From contig JAFGWL010000056.1 in assembly GCA_016937175.1 (NCBI GenBank), positions 186,001 through 250,000 on the forward strand: a stretch of DNA of 64,000 bases, in the 5' to 3' direction. Within the stretch, counting starts at the first letter, position 1, and each line of letters opens with the position of its first letter. Below are positions 3,614 through 16,595 of the stretch, piece by piece. The stretch comes from Candidatus Mcinerneyibacteriota bacterium. Lineage in GTDB: Bacteria > Macinerneyibacteriota > Macinerneyibacteria > Macinerneyibacteriales > DSCS01. The position numbers and the translations under genes were made by a program. A model generated the notes under the pieces. That model had not been told where the DNA came from. It ran no database searches and worked only from the letters and a program-made list of their open reading frames with translations.

Positions 3614-6600
3614 TTAATGCTGTCGTATCTCCCTGATACGCGATGCGGCTGTCTTACTGTACACGGTCTCTTTTCCTGATATCTGAATAATATATTCGTA
3701 GATCTCCACGGCTTTATCCATCTCTCCCAGCGCTTCATAGGCAGTCCCGCCCTGGAAGAGCGCGGTGACCATCCACTGAAAATCTTCATCGGTATTGACA
3801 GGGAGGTATTTCACTTTCATAAACTCACGGATGGCATCCCGGTAGTGTCCCCGGGCATAATAACAGTCTCCGATATTGAACTGGATTTCCATCTTCAGAG
3901 AGTCCGGTGCCCGGTCAATAAAGGAAGTGAGACGGCCCAGGGCCTCGTCATACTTCCTCTCATCCATAAAAGTATAGACAATATTGAGAAGAGCTCCGTA
4001 GTAAAGGGGTGTTTCAGGGAAACGGTCCACGACCTGCTGAAACGCTTCACGGGCTTTACCGGTCTCCCCCTCTTCCTTAAAGAGGAGTCCCCGGTTATAG
4101 AGCGCATCGGGACTGGGTTTGAATTCGTAGGAGCGTTGGAAATAGTCCAGCGCCTTATCTTTATCGCCCAGAGCATAATGGGCCTGTCCCAGGGAAAGAT
4201 AGAGCTTTTCCTTTCCTTCGAAGGAGGGGTTAGCCTCAAGACGAAGGAAGATGTCCAGAGCCTTGTCCGTCTCGCCCTTTCCCAGGCGGATATTTCCGAG
4301 CATGAAGGCTGCCTGAAGGTTCCAGGGTGTCTCCAGGACTTCCTTCCCCCCGCCGGCCTGAATAAAATAATCTTCCGCCCGTCCGGCATCTTTTTTCCCC
4401 AGATAGGCCACTTCTCCCAAGACATAAGATATCTCTTCCTCAAACTCTCTGAGGGTTTTGCTGTTCTTTCGACGAAGAGCAAGTCCTTCGTCAAGGCGGT
4501 TCAGACGGGTAAGTGCAATGACACGCCGGCTGACGGAATAAGCATCCCCCTCCCGGAAAAACTCCAGGATATCCCTCCAGCGCTCCTGCTCAGCCAAAGC
4601 TTTATAGACCCGGCCCCGGACATCCCTTCCGCGGGCTTTTCCCAGAAGCCCCATGGCCTCTTCATCCATCCCCAGCTTCAGGCAGGCAAGTCCCTTGACC
4701 ACAGCAAGCCCACCCTCTTCCGCCGTGATGTTCAGGCAGGCTTTCCGGGCGGCTTCTTTCTGTCCGTCAAGGATCAGGGCATCCAGATAGAGTCCCATGA
4801 CCTCCGGGTCGTTATAATATTCGGGCAGACGGGTCAGGACATTATAGATATTGAAGATCACTTCTTCGTAATCGGCTTCGCCGAAGGCGATATCGGCCAG
4901 CAGAAGGCTGGCTTTGACCTTCATCTCAAAGGGCTTCGTAATGGACAAAAGAAGCTCCCTGGCTTCCCCGTTACGCCCTGTCCGGTGATAGATAGATGCC
5001 AGATAGTAGGACAGAGTCCCCCTCTTTTCCCCCTCTGTTTCAAGCAGTCCGGTAAAGAGGCGTTCGGCCTCTCCGTAATTGGAGTTGTAATAGGCAGTCA
5101 TGGCACGGGCATACTCTTCAGCAGGTGTTCCTGCCACACTTTCGGGAAGCGGGAGCTCTTTGAACGCCTCTTCCCTCTCTTCACTGATAAGAAAATCGAT
5201 ATAGCTCCGCACCGTATCCTGGCTCACAGACCCGGGAAAGTTCGAAAAGGCGTAAAGGAAATCATCCTCTTCCAGAGTCCCTTCCATGTCATAATAGACC
5301 AGGACATGGGAATAGACTTCTCCTGCAGCCGGATGGTCTTTGCGTGCGTTGAAGAACGATTCGATTTCGCTTTTCGGCCCCTTTTTCAGAAGCAGGGCAT
5401 AAGCTCCCGCCCGGAGGGCCTTCTCATCGTCCCGCCCGCCTTTTTGGTAATACTCATAGGCTTTGCTGAAATCTTTGACCGAGAAAAAGACATCGCCCCG
5501 CTGTCTGTAGAGCTCTTTTTCTCCCACGGGTTCTTTCAGCTGCTGCTCCAGGAGGCCGTCCAGCGCGGCAAGGCCCCGGGTTATATCGGTGATGATATAA
5601 CGGTTCAGATAATCGATCCTTTTGCGGGCCTTATCGGCCAGGGGGGAGAAGGGGAAACGCTCTCCGATATTTTTGTAAGCTGTCACGGCTCTGTCGTAGC
5701 GAGGGATCTTCTCATAACAGAGGCCTATCTCATAAAGGGCTTTATCCCCATATCCTTCAGTATTGAAGGCAATACGCTCAAAGGCGGCGATGGCCCGCTC
5801 ATAATCCTTCATCTCATAGGCATAGATCCGCCCGACACGATAGACCAGATAAGGGACCTGGGGATCCCGGGAGAAATATGTAATATAATCGAGAAGGGCA
5901 TTGACGGCCTGGGCATGGAAACCGCCATCTTCAAAAAATTCGGCTTTCTCCATAAGAGCTCTTTTGATTTCGGCTTCATCCTGCCTGTTTCTGTGGAATC
6001 CTGCCATTTGATCGAAGAGAGCTGCGATCTTTTCCGTGTCCCAGCCTCTTTTTTCTCTCTCGATATCCAGAGCGAGCCTGACGATGTCGGGATAAAGGGA
6101 GCTGTCAGGATAGGCCTTAAGAAAATAGTCGACCTCCTTTGCCGCCTCCTCCTTCTTGCCCAGCAGAAGAAGGGCTTCGGCTTTCCCTTTCAGGGCATCA
6201 TCAGCCATAGCGCTGTTGGGGTTCTTGTCAAGAAGAGACTGGAAAGCGGCTGCGGCTTCGGAAAAGGCCCTCTTTTCCATATATACCCGTCCCTTTCCGT
6301 AAAGAGCCCGGTAATAGTACTCGCTCTCCGGATAGCGTGACATGAGCCCCTGATACTCTCTGAGAGCCTTATCATAATCATACTGACCGAAGGCGATCTC
6401 CGCTCTGTACCAGGCCCATTTCCCCGGATCGAGGTCCTTCTCCTCTAATTTTTCCAAAAATGGACGGGCCTTTTCCATCTCTCCCCGTTCAAAATGGTAG
6501 TCCAGAAGAGAGATATAGGCCTTTTTCAGATTGTCTCCCCTCGGGTTGAGATTGATGATTTCCTTCATTGCCTTAAAATAGGCCTCATGTTCACCGGCTT

Positions 6601-7036
6601 GCCGGTAGAGAGATGCCGCCAGAAACAGGGTCTCGGTGTAGAGGGAGGTATCTTTATAAAAGCGCCTGATCTTTTCTGCCGTCTCAAGAGCCTGTTTTTT
6701 CATTCCGCTTTCATCCAGGGCCAAAGCGATGTAATAGAGGATATCGCCTAAAGCCGGGCTCTCCTCATAACGCTGAAGGAACCTGTTCCCTTCCGTGAGG
6801 ACCATATTCCACTTCTCCAGACGGGCATACGAGGCGATCAGCTTCCGGTAAGCGCCTTCGACCCGCCGGTCCTGGGGGTTCTCATTGATAAATGTCTTAT
6901 ACTCTTCCACGGCCAGGTCAAAAAAACCATCCTGAAAGAGTTTTTCGGCATAGTCGAATCCTCCGATGATCCCCGAGACAGAAACAGGGGAGAGGATCAA
7001 CACCACGATGACCGCGATTTTATGAAGAAACTTCAT
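3614..7036 (-). CDS. large exported tetratricopeptide-repeat protein
   Basis: An 1140-residue protein with an N-terminal signal peptide (MKFLHK start, hydrophobic core to about residue 22, then GFDYAEKLF) followed by TPR-type helical pairs along nearly the whole length. Repeats such as ALDYFQRSYEFKPSPDALYN and GKAREAFQQVVDRFPETPLY are textbook TPR units of the YbgF/BamD/tol-pal type. It is probably periplasmic or surface-attached and acts as a protein-binding scaffold; no enzymatic domain is seen. The start codon overlaps the end of the upstream polyferredoxin gene by 17 bases and has GAAAGGAG before it, so translation of the two is probably coupled. The partner is unknown. Confidence 0.9.
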   Translation of the reverse strand: MKFLHKIAVIVVLILSPVSVSGIIGGFDYAEKLFQDGFFDLAVEEYKTFINENPQDRRVEGAYRKLIASYARLEKWNMVLTEGNRFLQRYEESPALGDILYYIALALDESGMKKQALETAEKIRRFYKDTSLYTETLFLAASLYRQAGEHEAYFKAMKEIINLNPRGDNLKKAYISLLDYHFERGEMEKARPFLEKLEEKDLDPGKWAWYRAEIAFGQYDYDKALREYQGLMSRYPESEYYYRALYGKGRVYMEKRAFSEAAAAFQSLLDKNPNSAMADDALKGKAEALLLLGKKEEAAKEVDYFLKAYPDSSLYPDIVRLALDIEREKRGWDTEKIAALFDQMAGFHRNRQDEAEIKRALMEKAEFFEDGGFHAQAVNALLDYITYFSRDPQVPYLVYRVGRIYAYEMKDYERAIAAFERIAFNTEGYGDKALYEIGLCYEKIPRYDRAVTAYKNIGERFPFSPLADKARKRIDYLNRYIITDITRGLAALDGLLEQQLKEPVGEKELYRQRGDVFFSVKDFSKAYEYYQKGGRDDEKALRAGAYALLLKKGPKSEIESFFNARKDHPAAGEVYSHVLVYYDMEGTLEEDDFLYAFSNFPGSVSQDTVRSYIDFLISEEREEAFKELPLPESVAGTPAEEYARAMTAYYNSNYGEAERLFTGLLETEGEKRGTLSYYLASIYHRTGRNGEARELLLSITKPFEMKVKASLLLADIAFGEADYEEVIFNIYNVLTRLPEYYNDPEVMGLYLDALILDGQKEAARKACLNITAEEGGLAVVKGLACLKLGMDEEAMGLLGKARGRDVRGRVYKALAEQERWRDILEFFREGDAYSVSRRVIALTRLNRLDEGLALRRKNSKTLREFEEEISYVLGEVAYLGKKDAGRAEDYFIQAGGGKEVLETPWNLQAAFMLGNIRLGKGETDKALDIFLRLEANPSFEGKEKLYLSLGQAHYALGDKDKALDYFQRSYEFKPSPDALYNRGLLFKEEGETGKAREAFQQVVDRFPETPLYYGALLNIVYTFMDERKYDEALGRLTSFIDRAPDSLKMEIQFNIGDCYYARGHYRDAIREFMKVKYLPVNTDEDFQWMVTALFQGGTAYEALGEMDKAVEIYEYIIQISGKETVYSKTAASRIREIRQH

Positions 7037-7862
7037 TGAAAGCTCCTTTCTTCTTCAAAAGAGGGGTAAAAGAGATACATGAGACCGGGCACGCAGGGAG
7101 ACAGTCTCCGCAGCGGATACACTCCTCAGACCCGGGGTCTTCGCTGATATTGATATCCACAGGGCAGACGGAGCGGCAAGCTCCGCAAGAGACACAGCGG
7201 CCCATGTCCACATGGATGGTATAGAGGCTGATCCTATTGAAAAACCCCAGTATTGTCCCCAAAGGACAGGTCGTCCTGCAGAAAAAACGGGGGATGACTA
7301 CGGATAAACCGCTGTAGGCGATAAGGAGCCCCACTTTCCAGAAATAGAGGAGCCCAAGGGGGATATTCAATGACCAGACCAGTGTCAACCCGCCCTCCAG
7401 GGTCCCTGCAGGGCAGATATAGGTGCAAAAGGCCGGTTTCAGGAGAACAAGAGGCAGAATTACGATAAAGAGGCCCAGGATGATATAGCGGATCAGGATG
7501 AAAAAACGGGGCAGTCCCAGAGAGATGGAAGAGATCTTCTTCAACAGGTCCTGATAAAACCCGAAGGGACAGAGATGGCCGCAATACCACCGCCCTGCCA
7601 GAAGCCCGGCGCTTCCCAGAAGCCCCAAGACAAGAAGAGAGATGTGGCGGGCCTGGCTGTAGATCATATACTGCAGGCTGCCCAGGGGGCATGAAGTCAG
7701 TGCCCCCGGACAGGAGTAACAATTAAGGACCGGCAGACAGAGCCCCTTTGACTCACCCTGAAAGGGAGCAGCTTCGATAAATCCTTTAATATTGGAATTG
7801 ATACCTATGCTGAAGAGAAGCTGCCGCCAAAAACGTTTTTTGAAAAAAGAAAGCCATTTCAT
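7020..7862 (-). CDS. NapH/CcoG-like membrane polyferredoxin (4Fe-4S binding protein)
   Basis: A 280-residue membrane protein. N-terminal cysteines C42, C48, C51 and C58 (LNCYSCPGA context) are followed by several transmembrane segments, each carrying a CPxG-type motif (CPFGF, CPAGT, CPLGT), and two bacterial ferredoxin motifs at the C-terminus (C223/226/229/233 and C248/251/254/258, each ending CP). This is the architecture of the NapH/NosR/CcoG electron-transfer family, which passes electrons across or along the membrane. The gene starts one base after the stop of the CXXC mini-protein and overlaps the TPR gene, so the three form a tight unit. The electron donor and acceptor are not encoded here. 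Confidence 0.92.
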   Translation of the reverse strand: MKWLSFFKKRFWRQLLFSIGINSNIKGFIEAAPFQGESKGLCLPVLNCYSCPGALTSCPLGSLQYMIYSQARHISLLVLGLLGSAGLLAGRWYCGHLCPFGFYQDLLKKISSISLGLPRFFILIRYIILGLFIVILPLVLLKPAFCTYICPAGTLEGGLTLVWSLNIPLGLLYFWKVGLLIAYSGLSVVIPRFFCRTTCPLGTILGFFNRISLYTIHVDMGRCVSCGACRSVCPVDINISEDPGSEECIRCGDCLPACPVSCISFTPLLKKKGAFNEVSS

Positions 7863-7863
7863 A

Positions 7864-8010
7864 TTATCCGATCCCGATGCACCCGTAGCAGATGTAAATA
7901 CCGTTGTTTTTAATGAGTTCCCATTCCCCCGTCAGAAGGCCCGCCAGGATCAAAAGGAGAGCCAGAAAAAGCAGGAGGGCCGCTGTGCGGATCTTATTCT
8001 TCTTTGTCAA
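7864..8010 (-). CDS. CXXC-motif membrane mini-protein (CD1871A-like)
   Basis: A 48-codon reading frame, probably too short for automatic calls. It has a lysine-rich start (TKKNKIRT), one hydrophobic helix over residues 9-27, and a C-terminal ICYGCIGIG that carries the CXXC pair at 41 and 44. This form closely matches the short CXXC family named after Clostridioides CD1871A, whose members end in a similar ICxxCIGIG and sit beside 4Fe-4S proteins. The only start codon after the in-frame stop at 8023-8025 is TTG at 8010, preceded by GGGGGATTTATC. It overlaps the end of folP by 17 bases, and its stop is one base from the polyferredoxin ATG. Function unknown; a redox or assembly partner of the polyferredoxin is an inference. 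Confidence 0.82.
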   Translation of the reverse strand: MTKKNKIRTAALLLFLALLLILAGLLTGEWELIKNNGIYICYGCIGIG

Positions 8011-9190
8011 GATAAATCCCCCTTATCACACGGACAGCGTCCCGGGCAGCTGCCACGTCGTGGACCCGGAGGATGTCGGCTCCGTTGCCCAGGGCCACAG
8101 CGTGAGCGGCGACAGTTCCCCACAGACGCCCGGCCGGCGGGCGCCCTGTAAGGGTCCCGAGAAACGATTTTCTTGAAAGCCCCATGACAAGGGGATAGGG
8201 GAGGGATTTAAACTCTCTCAGCCGCCTGAGAAGAGCGGTATTGTCTTCGAGCCGCTTCCCGAACCCTATTCCCGGGTCGATGAGGAGAGAATCTGCCGCG
8301 ATCCCCGATTTCCGGGCTTCTTCCGTCCGGCCGGCAAGATATGCATAGACTTCACCCGTGACATCTTCGTAAAAGGGGTTTTCCTGCATGGTATCAGGTG
8401 TCCCCTTCATATGCATAAGGATAACAGCGGCTTTAAAAGAGGCTGCTGTGGGAGCCATCTCAGGGTCATGAGAAAGCGCCGAGACGTCATTGATGATATC
8501 CGCCCCGTTTTCCAGAGCCTTGCGGGCGACATAGCTCTTGCGTGTATCCACCGAGACAGGGATCTCCGGAGCTTTTTCCCGGATAAGGGCCAGGGGCCTT
8601 TCTATTCGCTCCCACTCTTCAGAAGGCGATACCTCCCGGCTTCCCGGCCGGGTGGATTCTCCCCCGATATCGATAAGGTCGGCCCCCTCTTCTATAAGCT
8701 GTCTGATCCGGTTCTTTAAGGTGGCTTCATCTGTATGATGCCCTCCATCATAAAACGAATCGGGGGTCACATTAAGGATTCCCATGACCAGAGGGGCTGA
8801 AAGGCCGATCTCTTTGCCCCGGGCCCGGAAAAAGGCAGGAGGTGTATCGGGATTCAGCAGCGCGCGCGCTATTTGTTTCAGGCCGAAGGGCTGCTGTTCC
8901 AGTTTCCGGCTAAGTTTTTCCAGGTTTCTCCGGGTCCCCATGAGAATGATATCGGTCTTTTCAGGCTTCCCGGAAATGGCCGAACGGGGCAGCACAGCAT
9001 CGGCCCCTACGCTTAGAGCATCCTGTTTTATGATATTGGCCGCTTCAATGCGACACCCTTCTATCTTGATCAGCCGGACCTCTCTCTTTCTCTCAAAGAT
9101 CTCCAGGGCATAAGGGTCCACCCCGATTCTCTTGAGTTCATTTAAAAAATCCCCCTCTGAAGGATAGAGGCACCTCATCCGAGTCTCCAT
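7994..9190 (-). CDS. folP: dihydropteroate synthase with N-terminal extension
   Basis: Condenses p-aminobenzoate with hydroxymethyl-dihydropterin diphosphate in folate synthesis. The TIM-barrel signatures are all present: MGILNVTPDSF at 136-146, GGESTRPGS at 176-184, VDTRKS at 214-219, NDVSA at 234-238, DPGIGFGK at 305-312, SRKSF near 339 and RVHD at 375-378. At 398 residues it is about 120 longer than the minimal enzyme; the extra N-terminal region (1-130) is a known variant in several anaerobe lineages and is of unknown function. A promoter lies in the end of the upstream GH13 gene. The 3' end overlaps the CXXC mini-protein. Confidence 0.95.
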   Translation of the reverse strand: METRMRCLYPSEGDFLNELKRIGVDPYALEIFERKREVRLIKIEGCRIEAANIIKQDALSVGADAVLPRSAISGKPEKTDIILMGTRRNLEKLSRKLEQQPFGLKQIARALLNPDTPPAFFRARGKEIGLSAPLVMGILNVTPDSFYDGGHHTDEATLKNRIRQLIEEGADLIDIGGESTRPGSREVSPSEEWERIERPLALIREKAPEIPVSVDTRKSYVARKALENGADIINDVSALSHDPEMAPTAASFKAAVILMHMKGTPDTMQENPFYEDVTGEVYAYLAGRTEEARKSGIAADSLLIDPGIGFGKRLEDNTALLRRLREFKSLPYPLVMGLSRKSFLGTLTGRPPAGRLWGTVAAHAVALGNGADILRVHDVAAARDAVRVIRGIYLDKEE

Positions 9191-14128: not shown

Positions 14129-14150
14129 GCCGGAGGGTCATCCCTCCGGC
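14129..14150. terminator. convergent hairpin terminator
   Basis: GCCGGAGGG-TCAT-CCCTCCGGC is a perfect nine-pair stem, followed on the plus strand by GCTTCCCTTTTT. It separates the parvulin gene from znuB on the opposite strand, and the znuB stop codon sits in its loop. Confidence 0.75.
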
Positions 14151-14959
14151 GCTTCCCTTTTTCTTTTCATAAGAACCCGGACAGCCCGGGCCGCTCCATA
14201 CCCTGCAGCAGAGACGATGATGATCATCGCTCCTGAGGGCAGATTCAGCAGATAGGAGATGCCGAGCCCTGCACTGTTGAAGAGCACGGCAAACAGAGAC
14301 GCCAGGATCATCATGGAAGTCAAGTGCCGGCTGAAGAGGTTGGCTGCAGAAGCAGGCAGCGCCAGCAGGGCGATGACCAAAACAAGCCCCACGATCCGGG
14401 TCAGGAGGACGATGGTCACAGCGATCACTCCCAGAAAGAGAAGAGACATCAGGTTGACCGGCAGACCCCGCATGGCTGAATACTCTTCGTCAAATGAGAC
14501 ATAGAGGATATGCTTTTTAAACAAGACGACTCCGAGAATGAGGAAAAGGTCCAGGATGGCCAGGGCAAAGAGGTTTTTTGCGGTCACCAAAAGGATGTTC
14601 CCGAAAAGATAAGAGAGGAGGTCCACGGTATAGCCCGGCGTCAGAGAGATAAAGAGGACACCCAGGGCCATCCCCAGAGACCACAAGGCGGCGATGACAG
14701 TATCCTCTCTCTCCCCCAGCCTGTTTTTCCCCAGGACAAGGATCAGGACAAAAAGCAAAGCCGCTGCCAGCGCTCCCCACAGGGGTTCGAAGGAGAGGAA
14801 GACAGCCAGGCCGATCCCCCCCAGGACCGCATGAGCCAGCCCTCCGCTCATGACCGCCAAACGGCGGGTCACCACAAAGGTCCCGGCGATCCCGGCGGCT
14901 ATCCCCGACAGGAGAGCCGCCGTGAAGGTAAACAAATAGAGAGGAATCACGCTATCCAT
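14138..14959 (-). CDS. znuB: zinc/manganese ABC transporter permease (ZnuB-like)
   Basis: A 273-residue membrane protein of the ABC-3 family with eight or nine hydrophobic helices. It carries the conserved SGGLAHAVLGGIGLA segment near the N-terminus and the IVGLVLVIALLALPASAA helix, where the family EAA-like contact to the ATPase lies. It moves zinc (or manganese) across the inner membrane with ZnuC and ZnuA. The frame opens at a GTG (14980) that overlaps the znuC stop, but AGGAGGAGGT lies directly before the ATG at 14959, which I prefer. Last gene of the zur-znuA-znuC-znuB operon; its stop lies in a shared terminator. Confidence 0.92.
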   Translation of the reverse strand: MDSVIPLYLFTFTAALLSGIAAGIAGTFVVTRRLAVMSGGLAHAVLGGIGLAVFLSFEPLWGALAAALLFVLILVLGKNRLGEREDTVIAALWSLGMALGVLFISLTPGYTVDLLSYLFGNILLVTAKNLFALAILDLFLILGVVLFKKHILYVSFDEEYSAMRGLPVNLMSLLFLGVIAVTIVLLTRIVGLVLVIALLALPASAANLFSRHLTSMMILASLFAVLFNSAGLGISYLLNLPSGAMIIIVSAAGYGAARAVRVLMKRKREAPEG

Positions 14960-14967
14960 ACCTCCTC

Positions 14968-15705
14968 CTAAAGGCCGCACTGATGGCGGATCTCTGTTAC
15001 TTTATGCCCATAAGGTGCAATTCTTTCCCTTTCAAGGGCGATCTCTTCAGTAGCATGACAGGCAGACCTTCTGTTCAGACACATGACCTTATTGACATAG
15101 GAAGAGACAAAGGTGATATCATGGGTTACCAGAAGGATGGTCATGACACTGTTCAGTTCTTTGAAGAGTTCATAGATATCCTCTTCCACGGCAATGTCCA
15201 CGCTGGAAGTCGGCTCATCAAGGATCAAAAGTTCCGGAGAGGAGACCAGGGCCCGGGCCAGCAAAGTCCTCTGCTTCTGGCCGCCTGAAAGCTGCCCGAA
15301 ATGTCTCCCGGCCAGATCGGCGATCCCCAGCTGTTCCAATGAACGGAGCCCCTGTTCCACAGCATCCCTTTTCCAGGCAGGGCCGATCATGCTTTTATGG
15401 AAGAGCCCCTGCAGAACGACTTCCAGTACGGTGATGGGAAAAGAGGCATCCATGGTACTGAACTGAGGGACATATCCTATGCGCGAGCCGGCCTTGGCGG
15501 GAGGGCCTCCCAAAACAGTCAATGTCCCCATAGTAGGCTGAAGAAGTCCTGTGATCAACTTCACCAAAGTCGTCTTCCCCCCTCCGTTGGGACCCACGAT
15601 GGCGACAAAATCGCTTCTGTCTACAGATACAGAGATATCCTCCAGCACATAATCATCGTCATAGGCAAACCAGAGCCCGCGGCTCTCCAGTACTTTTTCC
15701 ATCAC
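14968..15705 (-). CDS. znuC: zinc ABC transporter ATP-binding protein (ZnuC-like)
   Basis: 245 residues with all ABC ATPase motifs: Walker A GPNGGGKT at 38-45, Q-loop near VPQFST at 79-84, signature LSGGQ at 139-143, Walker B LLILDEP at 159-165 and the switch histidine in LLVTHD. This is the energy-coupling subunit for the ZnuB permease. Its start overlaps the znuA stop by four bases (ATGA), with GGGGAG upstream. The order zur-znuA-znuC-znuB and the upstream palindrome support zinc; manganese or iron transport by this family cannot be excluded from sequence. Confidence 0.94.
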   Translation of the reverse strand: MMEKVLESRGLWFAYDDDYVLEDISVSVDRSDFVAIVGPNGGGKTTLVKLITGLLQPTMGTLTVLGGPPAKAGSRIGYVPQFSTMDASFPITVLEVVLQGLFHKSMIGPAWKRDAVEQGLRSLEQLGIADLAGRHFGQLSGGQKQRTLLARALVSSPELLILDEPTSSVDIAVEEDIYELFKELNSVMTILLVTHDITFVSSYVNKVMCLNRRSACHATEEIALERERIAPYGHKVTEIRHQCGL

Positions 15706-16595
15706 TCCCCTGCCTTTCCTGCCGCCGCCCGGGCCGCCTCTTTAAGAAGGGCCGGATAATCGCTACCCAGAGGATCCAGAGTGACCACTTCCCCGTTGAG
15801 TGCCTGAGCTATGCGCACAGCCGCATGACGGCTGAATTCCTTCTGAATCATGACTGTTTTGACCCCCCTCTCCTTCAAATAGTCCAGGATGGCCTGCAGT
15901 TCGCGGGGAGCCGGCTCTTTGCCCCGGACCTCTATGGGAATCTGTTCCAGGCCAAACTCTCTGCAGAAATACCCCCAGGAGGGATGAAAGACAGCAAAAG
16001 GGGCTTTTTCTCCCTGCCCCAGAATGTACCTGACCTCTTTCTGCAGCTGTGTCAGGTCCTCCAGAAGAAGGGCCAGCCTCTCTTTGTAACGGCTTTCTCC
16101 TTCAGGGTCGATATGGGCCAGGGCCACAGCCATATTTTCGGCCATCTGCTTCCCGAGCTCGGGACTCAGCCAGATATGGGGATCCAGGTGTCCATGGCCG
16201 TGGCTGTCCTCTTTCTCCGGGCTGCCGCCCATGAGAGTCCGGAAATCGTCAACGGGCTGTTTGGGAATCCCTGCAGAGACATCATAGACCTTCATCCGAG
16301 GCAGAAGTTCTTTGATCCGGGGCATCCAGGCTTCTTCAAACGGAACACCTATAGCAAAAAAAGCCTTCGCCCGGGAAAGTTTCTGCAGTTGGCGGGGCCG
16401 CGGCTCATAAGTCGCCGGGTTTTCTCCAGGACCCACCATGACCTCGACTTGAAACTCCTCTCCGGCCAGCTGTTCCATAAACCATACCTGGGGAGGAATG
16501 CTCACAAAAACAAGGGGTTTCTCGCCGGTACGGGACGAAAAAGACGAGCAGGACCCCAGTATCAAAAGCAGGCCTATATAAAGCAGGCGTTTCAT
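15702..16595 (-). CDS. znuA: zinc ABC transporter substrate-binding lipoprotein (ZnuA-like)
   Basis: 297 residues of the cluster A-I metal-binding family. A lipobox with Cys 16 (LILGSC) predicts a lipid-anchored periplasmic protein. A short histidine-rich loop EDSHGHGHLDPHIW (H132, 134, 136, 140) is typical of zinc rather than manganese binders. The usual first metal ligand, the His of the PHxYEP motif, is Ala here (ENPATYEP, residues 59-65), so the site may have three ligands or use the loop. VFHPSWGYF carries the next His. Its start overlaps the zur stop by four bases. Confidence 0.92.
   Translation of the reverse strand: MKRLLYIGLLLILGSCSSFSSRTGEKPLVFVSIPPQVWFMEQLAGEEFQVEVMVGPGENPATYEPRPRQLQKLSRAKAFFAIGVPFEEAWMPRIKELLPRMKVYDVSAGIPKQPVDDFRTLMGGSPEKEDSHGHGHLDPHIWLSPELGKQMAENMAVALAHIDPEGESRYKERLALLLEDLTQLQKEVRYILGQGEKAPFAVFHPSWGYFCREFGLEQIPIEVRGKEPAPRELQAILDYLKERGVKTVMIQKEFSRHAAVRIAQALNGEVVTLDPLGSDYPALLKEAARAAAGKAGE

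Follow-up and report, generated by a model that had tools for sequence, protein, structure and literature searches.

A possible thiol relay formed by a membrane polyferredoxin, a CXXC mini-protein with selenocysteine forms and an exported thioredoxin

Between folP and a gene for a membrane polyferredoxin, the stretch of DNA analysed here (the window, 64,000 nucleotides from a Candidatus Mcinerneyibacteriota genome) contains an open reading frame of 48 codons that begins with TTG. Is this frame a gene, and what might so small a protein do beside a polyferredoxin? An earlier note made from the sequence alone had described a product with one hydrophobic helix and the C-terminus ICYGCIGIG, a stop codon one base from the polyferredoxin ATG, and a 17-base overlap with folP. 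Reading and translating the window confirmed the frame, the single hydrophobic stretch, the C-terminus and the overlap, and the only base between the stop and the ATG (7862) is 7863 (Table 1). Within an open frame of 52 codons, TTG is the sole start, rare codons aside, and the Shine-Dalgarno-like AAGGGGGA lies about 6 bases upstream of it. The KKNK preceding the helix suggests that the N-terminus is inside.

A frame with a TTG start and only 48 codons that overlaps or touches the neighbouring genes could be a chance, non-functional one, or could encode a leader peptide whose sole role is to couple translation of folP and the polyferredoxin. The same-genus genome G001 retains the frame at 65% identity with gene order unchanged, and the frame is thus more than chance; it likewise lies between folP and the polyferredoxin in both G001 and G002, a genome of the same order. 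Base differences between the window and G001 number 13, 11 and 31 at the three codon positions (i.e., 31 of 55 are at third positions), and dN is 0.28 with dS saturated. Such bias toward third positions speaks against a chance or leader frame, as do the invariant second cysteine of the CXXC, the existence of selenocysteine forms, and mini-protein homologues with the same C-terminus found across many phyla in varied gene contexts. Conservation has led us to discard the chance or leader reading as vanishingly improbable, and the frame, as judged by these sequence comparisons, is a real gene.

Table 1. Coordinates of the mini-protein gene, the polyferredoxin gene and their neighbours in the window.
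Feature	Position	Strand	Description	Basis
CXXC membrane mini-protein gene	7864..8010	minus	48 aa, TTG start, MTKKNKIRTAALLLFLALLLILAGLLTGEWELIKNNGIYICYGCIGIG	Homologues in same genus, same order and other phyla; purifying selection; NF040920 profile match
Mini-protein hydrophobic helix	7933..7986	minus	About residues 9-26	Read from sequence
Mini-protein CXXC codons	7879..7890	minus	C41-C44	128-locus motif comparison
Shine-Dalgarno-like sequence of mini-protein gene	8017..8024	minus	AAGGGGGA	Position counted by hand
NapH-like membrane polyferredoxin	7020..7862	minus	280 aa	Profile matches; AlphaFold2 model, mean pLDDT 92
Polyferredoxin CxxCP...CP motif	7689..7721	minus	C48/C51/C58, predicted outer face	100% conserved in 97 sequences; side inferred
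Polyferredoxin CX3CP motif 1	7569..7583	minus	C94/C98, predicted cytoplasmic face	97-sequence alignment
Polyferredoxin CX3CP motif 2	7413..7427	minus	C146/C150, predicted outer face	97-sequence alignment
Polyferredoxin CX3CP motif 3	7266..7280	minus	C195/C199, predicted cytoplasmic face	97-sequence alignment
Polyferredoxin C-terminal 2x[4Fe-4S] ferredoxin domain	7089..7196	minus	C223-C258	Domain match, fold match, alignment
folP, dihydropteroate synthase	7994..9190	minus	Upstream neighbour outside the unit	Profile match; synteny only within order
TPR protein	3614..7036	minus	1140 aa, downstream neighbour outside the unit	Profile match; synteny

The likeness to the CD1871A family proposed earlier was borne out by an HMM search. 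The window protein matches the NCBIfam model NF040920 (CD1871A_fam) with E=5.3e-6 and 26.2 bits against a curated cut-off of 32 bits, the homologue in G002 reaches 30.7 bits, and 18 of 20 mini-protein homologues match the model. The kinship is therefore real and the window copy divergent; because its score is under the cut-off, we treat it as a homologue and not as a named CD1871A member. Across 128 loci conforming to the motif, the first CXXC position is Cys in 123 and UGA in 5, the second is Cys in all 128 with Gly at +2 afterwards, and the chain ends one residue past G[ILV] in 123. The mini-protein has no match in PHROGs and only sub-threshold, unrelated matches in Pfam, and CD1871A is not named in the open-access literature searched. 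One candidate homologue (L006 in G058, E=0.004) was dropped as a soluble-looking chance match.

The association with the polyferredoxin was measured from the partner's side. A polyferredoxin alignment in which the mini-protein was not used was scanned over 84,980 species genomes, and the best 80 of 576 confirmed relatives were taken; the resulting rate is valid for that subfamily only. The mini-protein gene touches the polyferredoxin gene in 79 of these best 80 loci (76 directly 5' and 3 directly 3'), the one without it being L055. The hosts are Clostridia, Aminicenantes and other Acidobacteriota, WOR-3/Stahlbacteria, Sphaerochaetaceae, Selenomonadales and one actinomycete. Starting from the mini-protein, the polyferredoxin is adjacent in all genomes but a few, and each of the seven genomes tested with an unlinked mini-protein gene has a polyferredoxin of the same subfamily elsewhere (E<=2e-83). 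Furthermore, in RefSeq Peptoclostridium acidaminophilum a CD1871A-family gene overlaps the gene of a 4Fe-4S binding protein, and a TlpA disulfide reductase gene is near that pair, past one opposite-strand gene. Conserved pairing with a 4Fe-4S protein had been predicted by the earlier note, which named a lack of homologues beside such proteins as the case against it; the survey found them there. The mini-protein and the polyferredoxin, judged by gene neighbourhood, are a conserved unit across many bacterial phyla.

The gene for the TPR protein overlaps the polyferredoxin gene by 17 bases. The order folP, mini-protein, polyferredoxin, TPR protein is seen only in two genera of the same order, and the suggestion that the TPR protein is a third component was rejected since this synteny is conserved only within the order. 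Elsewhere in the window (14138-16595), three adjacent minus-strand genes resemble a metal (zinc/manganese) ABC uptake system.

The polyferredoxin matches PF12801 (Fer4_5) with 59 bits against a cut-off of 22 and carries CX3CP motifs and a C-terminal 2x[4Fe-4S] domain. Its score against NapH (TIGR02163/NF007013) is 54.1 bits, below the 213-bit cut-off, and a Pfam search found no FMN-binding domain in it. In the alignment of 97 sequences the motif cysteines are 97-100% conserved; no variation occurs at C48, C51, C58, C94, C98, C150, C195 or C199, and almost none at C146. The nine membrane cysteines are divided between the two sides of the predicted helices. A topology predicted from three hydrophobic helices and the distribution of charges suggests that C48/C51/C58/C146/C150 face outward and that C94/C98/C195/C199 and the ferredoxin domain face inward. 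The CX3CP motifs may be cluster ligands or disulphide pairs, a choice that is undecided even for NapH and NosR (PMC5928378). An AlphaFold2 model from the 97-sequence alignment reached pLDDT 92 (65 for an earlier, shallow model); a fold search with it matched only the ferredoxin domain (about 208-273), and no solved structure like the membrane part was returned. The same polyferredoxin is encoded in two unannotated faecal "Bacteriophage sp." records (MT836098.1 and MT836032.1), which are probably bacterial DNA or mobile-element cargo.

The five conserved cysteines on the predicted outer face could share a cluster with the two of the mini-protein. Together with the close pairing of the genes, this is what would be expected if the mini-protein were a structural subunit whose CXXC ligates an outer-face iron-sulphur or other metal centre of the polyferredoxin, the thioredoxins near these loci serving maturation. 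We regard such a role as unlikely in view of the gene arrangements and codon exchanges described below.

A TlpA profile was built from WCxxC-containing neighbours at 14 loci and then tested on other loci, where it matched 61 of 182 neighbours that lie on the same strand no more than 400 bp away, vs 6 of 1165 other genes (p=2e-50). Pfam gives the neighbouring thioredoxins AhpC-TSA/Redoxin/thioredoxin domains, and those near clostridial units read FC/YC/GCxPC. When the seed loci are included, an exported TlpA-type thioredoxin is adjacent or fused in 56 of 79 public units; no thioredoxin is adjacent at about 29% of public loci or in the window. In the window genome, a TlpA-type lipoprotein (lipobox LFAGC, WATWCAPC) is encoded on another contig and is conserved in G001 and G002. 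Natural polyferredoxin-TM-TlpA fusions occur at L050, L086, L087, L091 and L100, and in four genomes (G222, G351, G131 and G268) the mini-protein gene overlaps an exported thioredoxin gene while the polyferredoxin is elsewhere; both arrangements count against a structural subunit of the polyferredoxin. At L050, L086, L087 and L100 the mini-protein domain forms the C-terminus of a membrane protein of ~250 residues with multiple helices, encoded directly before the fusion. At L160 and L161 (G131 and G268), the mini-protein gene is flanked by genes for a thioredoxin-like lipoprotein and a peroxiredoxin-like protein, and these neighbours suggest peroxide defence as one use of the mini-protein. Judged by neighbourhoods and fusions, an exported TlpA-like thioredoxin is a recurrent third part of the unit and the only recurrent partner seen. 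The reading in the earlier note is supported in part: the conserved pair holds, the TPR protein as a third part does not, and the note did not mention the natural fusions, the selenocysteine forms or the negative association with CcdA/DsbD.

In ten genomes from five families (G106, G136, G311, G373, G726 and G780-G784), the first Cys of the CXXC is replaced by an aligned in-frame UGA, always TGA. It was found first in five genomes, and five further members of family f136, when examined, all had UGA. About 12 bases after the UGA is a SECIS-like hairpin of six pairs with a GGU loop, whose 3' arm overlaps the mini-protein stop codon and non-coding sequence beyond. The hairpin is present in 5 of 5 UGA forms vs 4 of 104 Cys forms (p=1e-6), and three of its pairs show compensatory changes; in G311 it fits a different register. 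SelB is above the cut-off in all five Sec-form genomes tested, and in G106 a tRNA-Sec gene lies ~10 bases upstream of the UGA mini-protein gene (L167:7472-7720, G106:C102). By UGA codon, SECIS element and Sec machinery, the relatives in the ten genomes qualify as predicted selenoprotein forms, which are a new finding here; the family is absent from the table of 119 bacterial selenoprotein families in a 2026 review (PMC13188914). The window copy has TGC at position 41 and is thus a Cys form, and no SelB over the cut-off was found in its genome.

Several related arrangements were seen. selC and the selenoprotein gene of G106 are arranged as if one unit. On the minus strand at L188 (G071:C10), a Cys-form gene with a TGC codon is followed by a perfect SECIS-like hairpin with a GGGT loop; this may be a recent Sec-to-Cys reversal, the hairpin being a possible fossil. 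Several TlpA-like genes of Sec-using genomes with a single in-frame TGA each (G311:C176, G311:C145 and G136:C42) are possible selenoprotein thioredoxins.

Replacement of the first cysteine of a CXXC by selenocysteine usually marks a catalytic thiol pair. Because Sec and Cys exchange at this position, we read the CXXC of the mini-protein as redox-active, and repeated exchange of this kind, typical of catalytic redox pairs, argues against a purely structural ligand; selenocysteine is also able to bind metals.

If the unit reduces exported thioredoxins, its distribution can be compared with that of DsbD/CcdA. No PF02683 protein was found in the window genome (98.7% complete), and neither the mini-protein nor the polyferredoxin matches this family. 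Among 386 diverse genomes, DsbD/CcdA is absent from 21 of 36 with the mini-protein vs 40 of 350 without it (p=5e-10). At the level of families, a count that controls shared ancestry only roughly, most members are without it in 12 of the 23 families that have the mini-protein (p=7e-6). Weak mini-protein matches led us to omit G057, G179 and G385 from the DsbD/CcdA count. A DsbD/CcdA protein is also present in 15 of the 36 mini-bearing genomes, and therefore the unit is no strict replacement.

The pairing of the genes, the thioredoxin neighbours and fusions, the Sec/Cys exchange, the absence of DsbD/CcdA and the membrane cysteines together incline us, with somewhat better than even confidence, toward a relay, fed by ferredoxin and comparable to DsbD/CcdA, in which the polyferredoxin, the CXXC mini-protein and an exported thioredoxin pass thiol-reducing power across the membrane. 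The mini-protein would span the membrane once, carry a dithiol (Cys-Cys, or in some relatives Sec-Cys) and work with the adjacent polyferredoxin. Low-potential electrons, probably from cytoplasmic ferredoxin, would enter the C-terminal 2x[4Fe-4S] domain of the polyferredoxin, traverse the membrane via the invariant cysteines of that protein and pass to the CXXC or UXXC pair on the outward side of the mini-protein. The mini-protein, once reduced, would in turn reduce an exported TlpA-like thioredoxin. The job of DsbD/CcdA would thus be done by unrelated parts. In this scheme we infer the direction of electron flow, the donor, the cluster content, direct contact and the topology.

NapH-like proteins have been described as carrying electrons across the membrane for flavinylated systems, as DsbD does for thioredoxins, with quinol proposed as the donor for the former and with many extracytosolic acceptors served (PMC8238504). 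By analogy, quinol could be the donor to the present unit instead. A membrane quinol source, or an acceptor other than thioredoxin, as in the flavinylated systems, with thioredoxin acting in assembly of an exported redox enzyme, would fit the loci at which no thioredoxin is adjacent, the window among them, and the Sec locus L182, which adjoins a multi-CxxCH protein. Such a system is quite improbable here: thioredoxin is the sole partner that recurs, the polyferredoxin is without an FMN-binding domain, and many of the hosts are Clostridia, which are mostly without quinones.

Our confidence is evenly divided on the broader proposal that the thiol relay is a third, undescribed class of transmembrane thiol reduction that has no relation to DsbD/CcdA. 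A polyferredoxin would drive a CXXC mini-protein of 45-55 residues, this would reduce exported thioredoxins, and in several lineages the mini-protein would constitute a new family of selenoproteins. In the open-access papers searched we found no NapH-like route to thiols, and nothing on a polyferredoxin with TlpA, CcdA or selenoproteins that would cover the pair. If true, the proposal would explain how exported thioredoxins are kept reduced in many anaerobes without CcdA/DsbD, give a function to a tiny, named but unstudied family often missed by gene finders, and add a selenoprotein family that the 119 of the 2026 review (PMC13188914) do not include. The unit is small (two or three genes) and testable in culturable Clostridia.

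Four known systems invite comparison. With the CD1871A family, the window protein shares its length, a single hydrophobic segment, the C-terminal CXXCIG[ILV]G and an adjoining 4Fe-4S binding protein; it differs in scoring 26.2 bits, below the 32-bit cut-off, and the family is without a described function. Polyferredoxins of the NapH/NosR/PceC types likewise have membrane CX3CP motifs and two C-terminal [4Fe-4S] motifs, whereas the window protein scores 54 bits vs the NapH cut-off of 213, lacks an FMN domain, has an extra invariant CxxCP...CP before the first clear TM, and is partnered by a CXXC mini-protein. Known UxxC selenoprotein families resemble the mini-protein relatives in having a UxxC redox motif and a SECIS hairpin that closely follows the UGA; the table of known families (PMC13188914) does not list the mini-protein family, and the window's own copy is a Cys form. 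DsbD/CcdA (PF02683) shares the proposed job, supplying exported thioredoxin-like proteins with reducing power from the other side of the membrane, and has TlpA partners, yet it has no homology with the mini-protein or the polyferredoxin, and the proposed unit would use iron-sulphur clusters where DsbD/CcdA uses cytoplasmic thioredoxin via a helical bundle.
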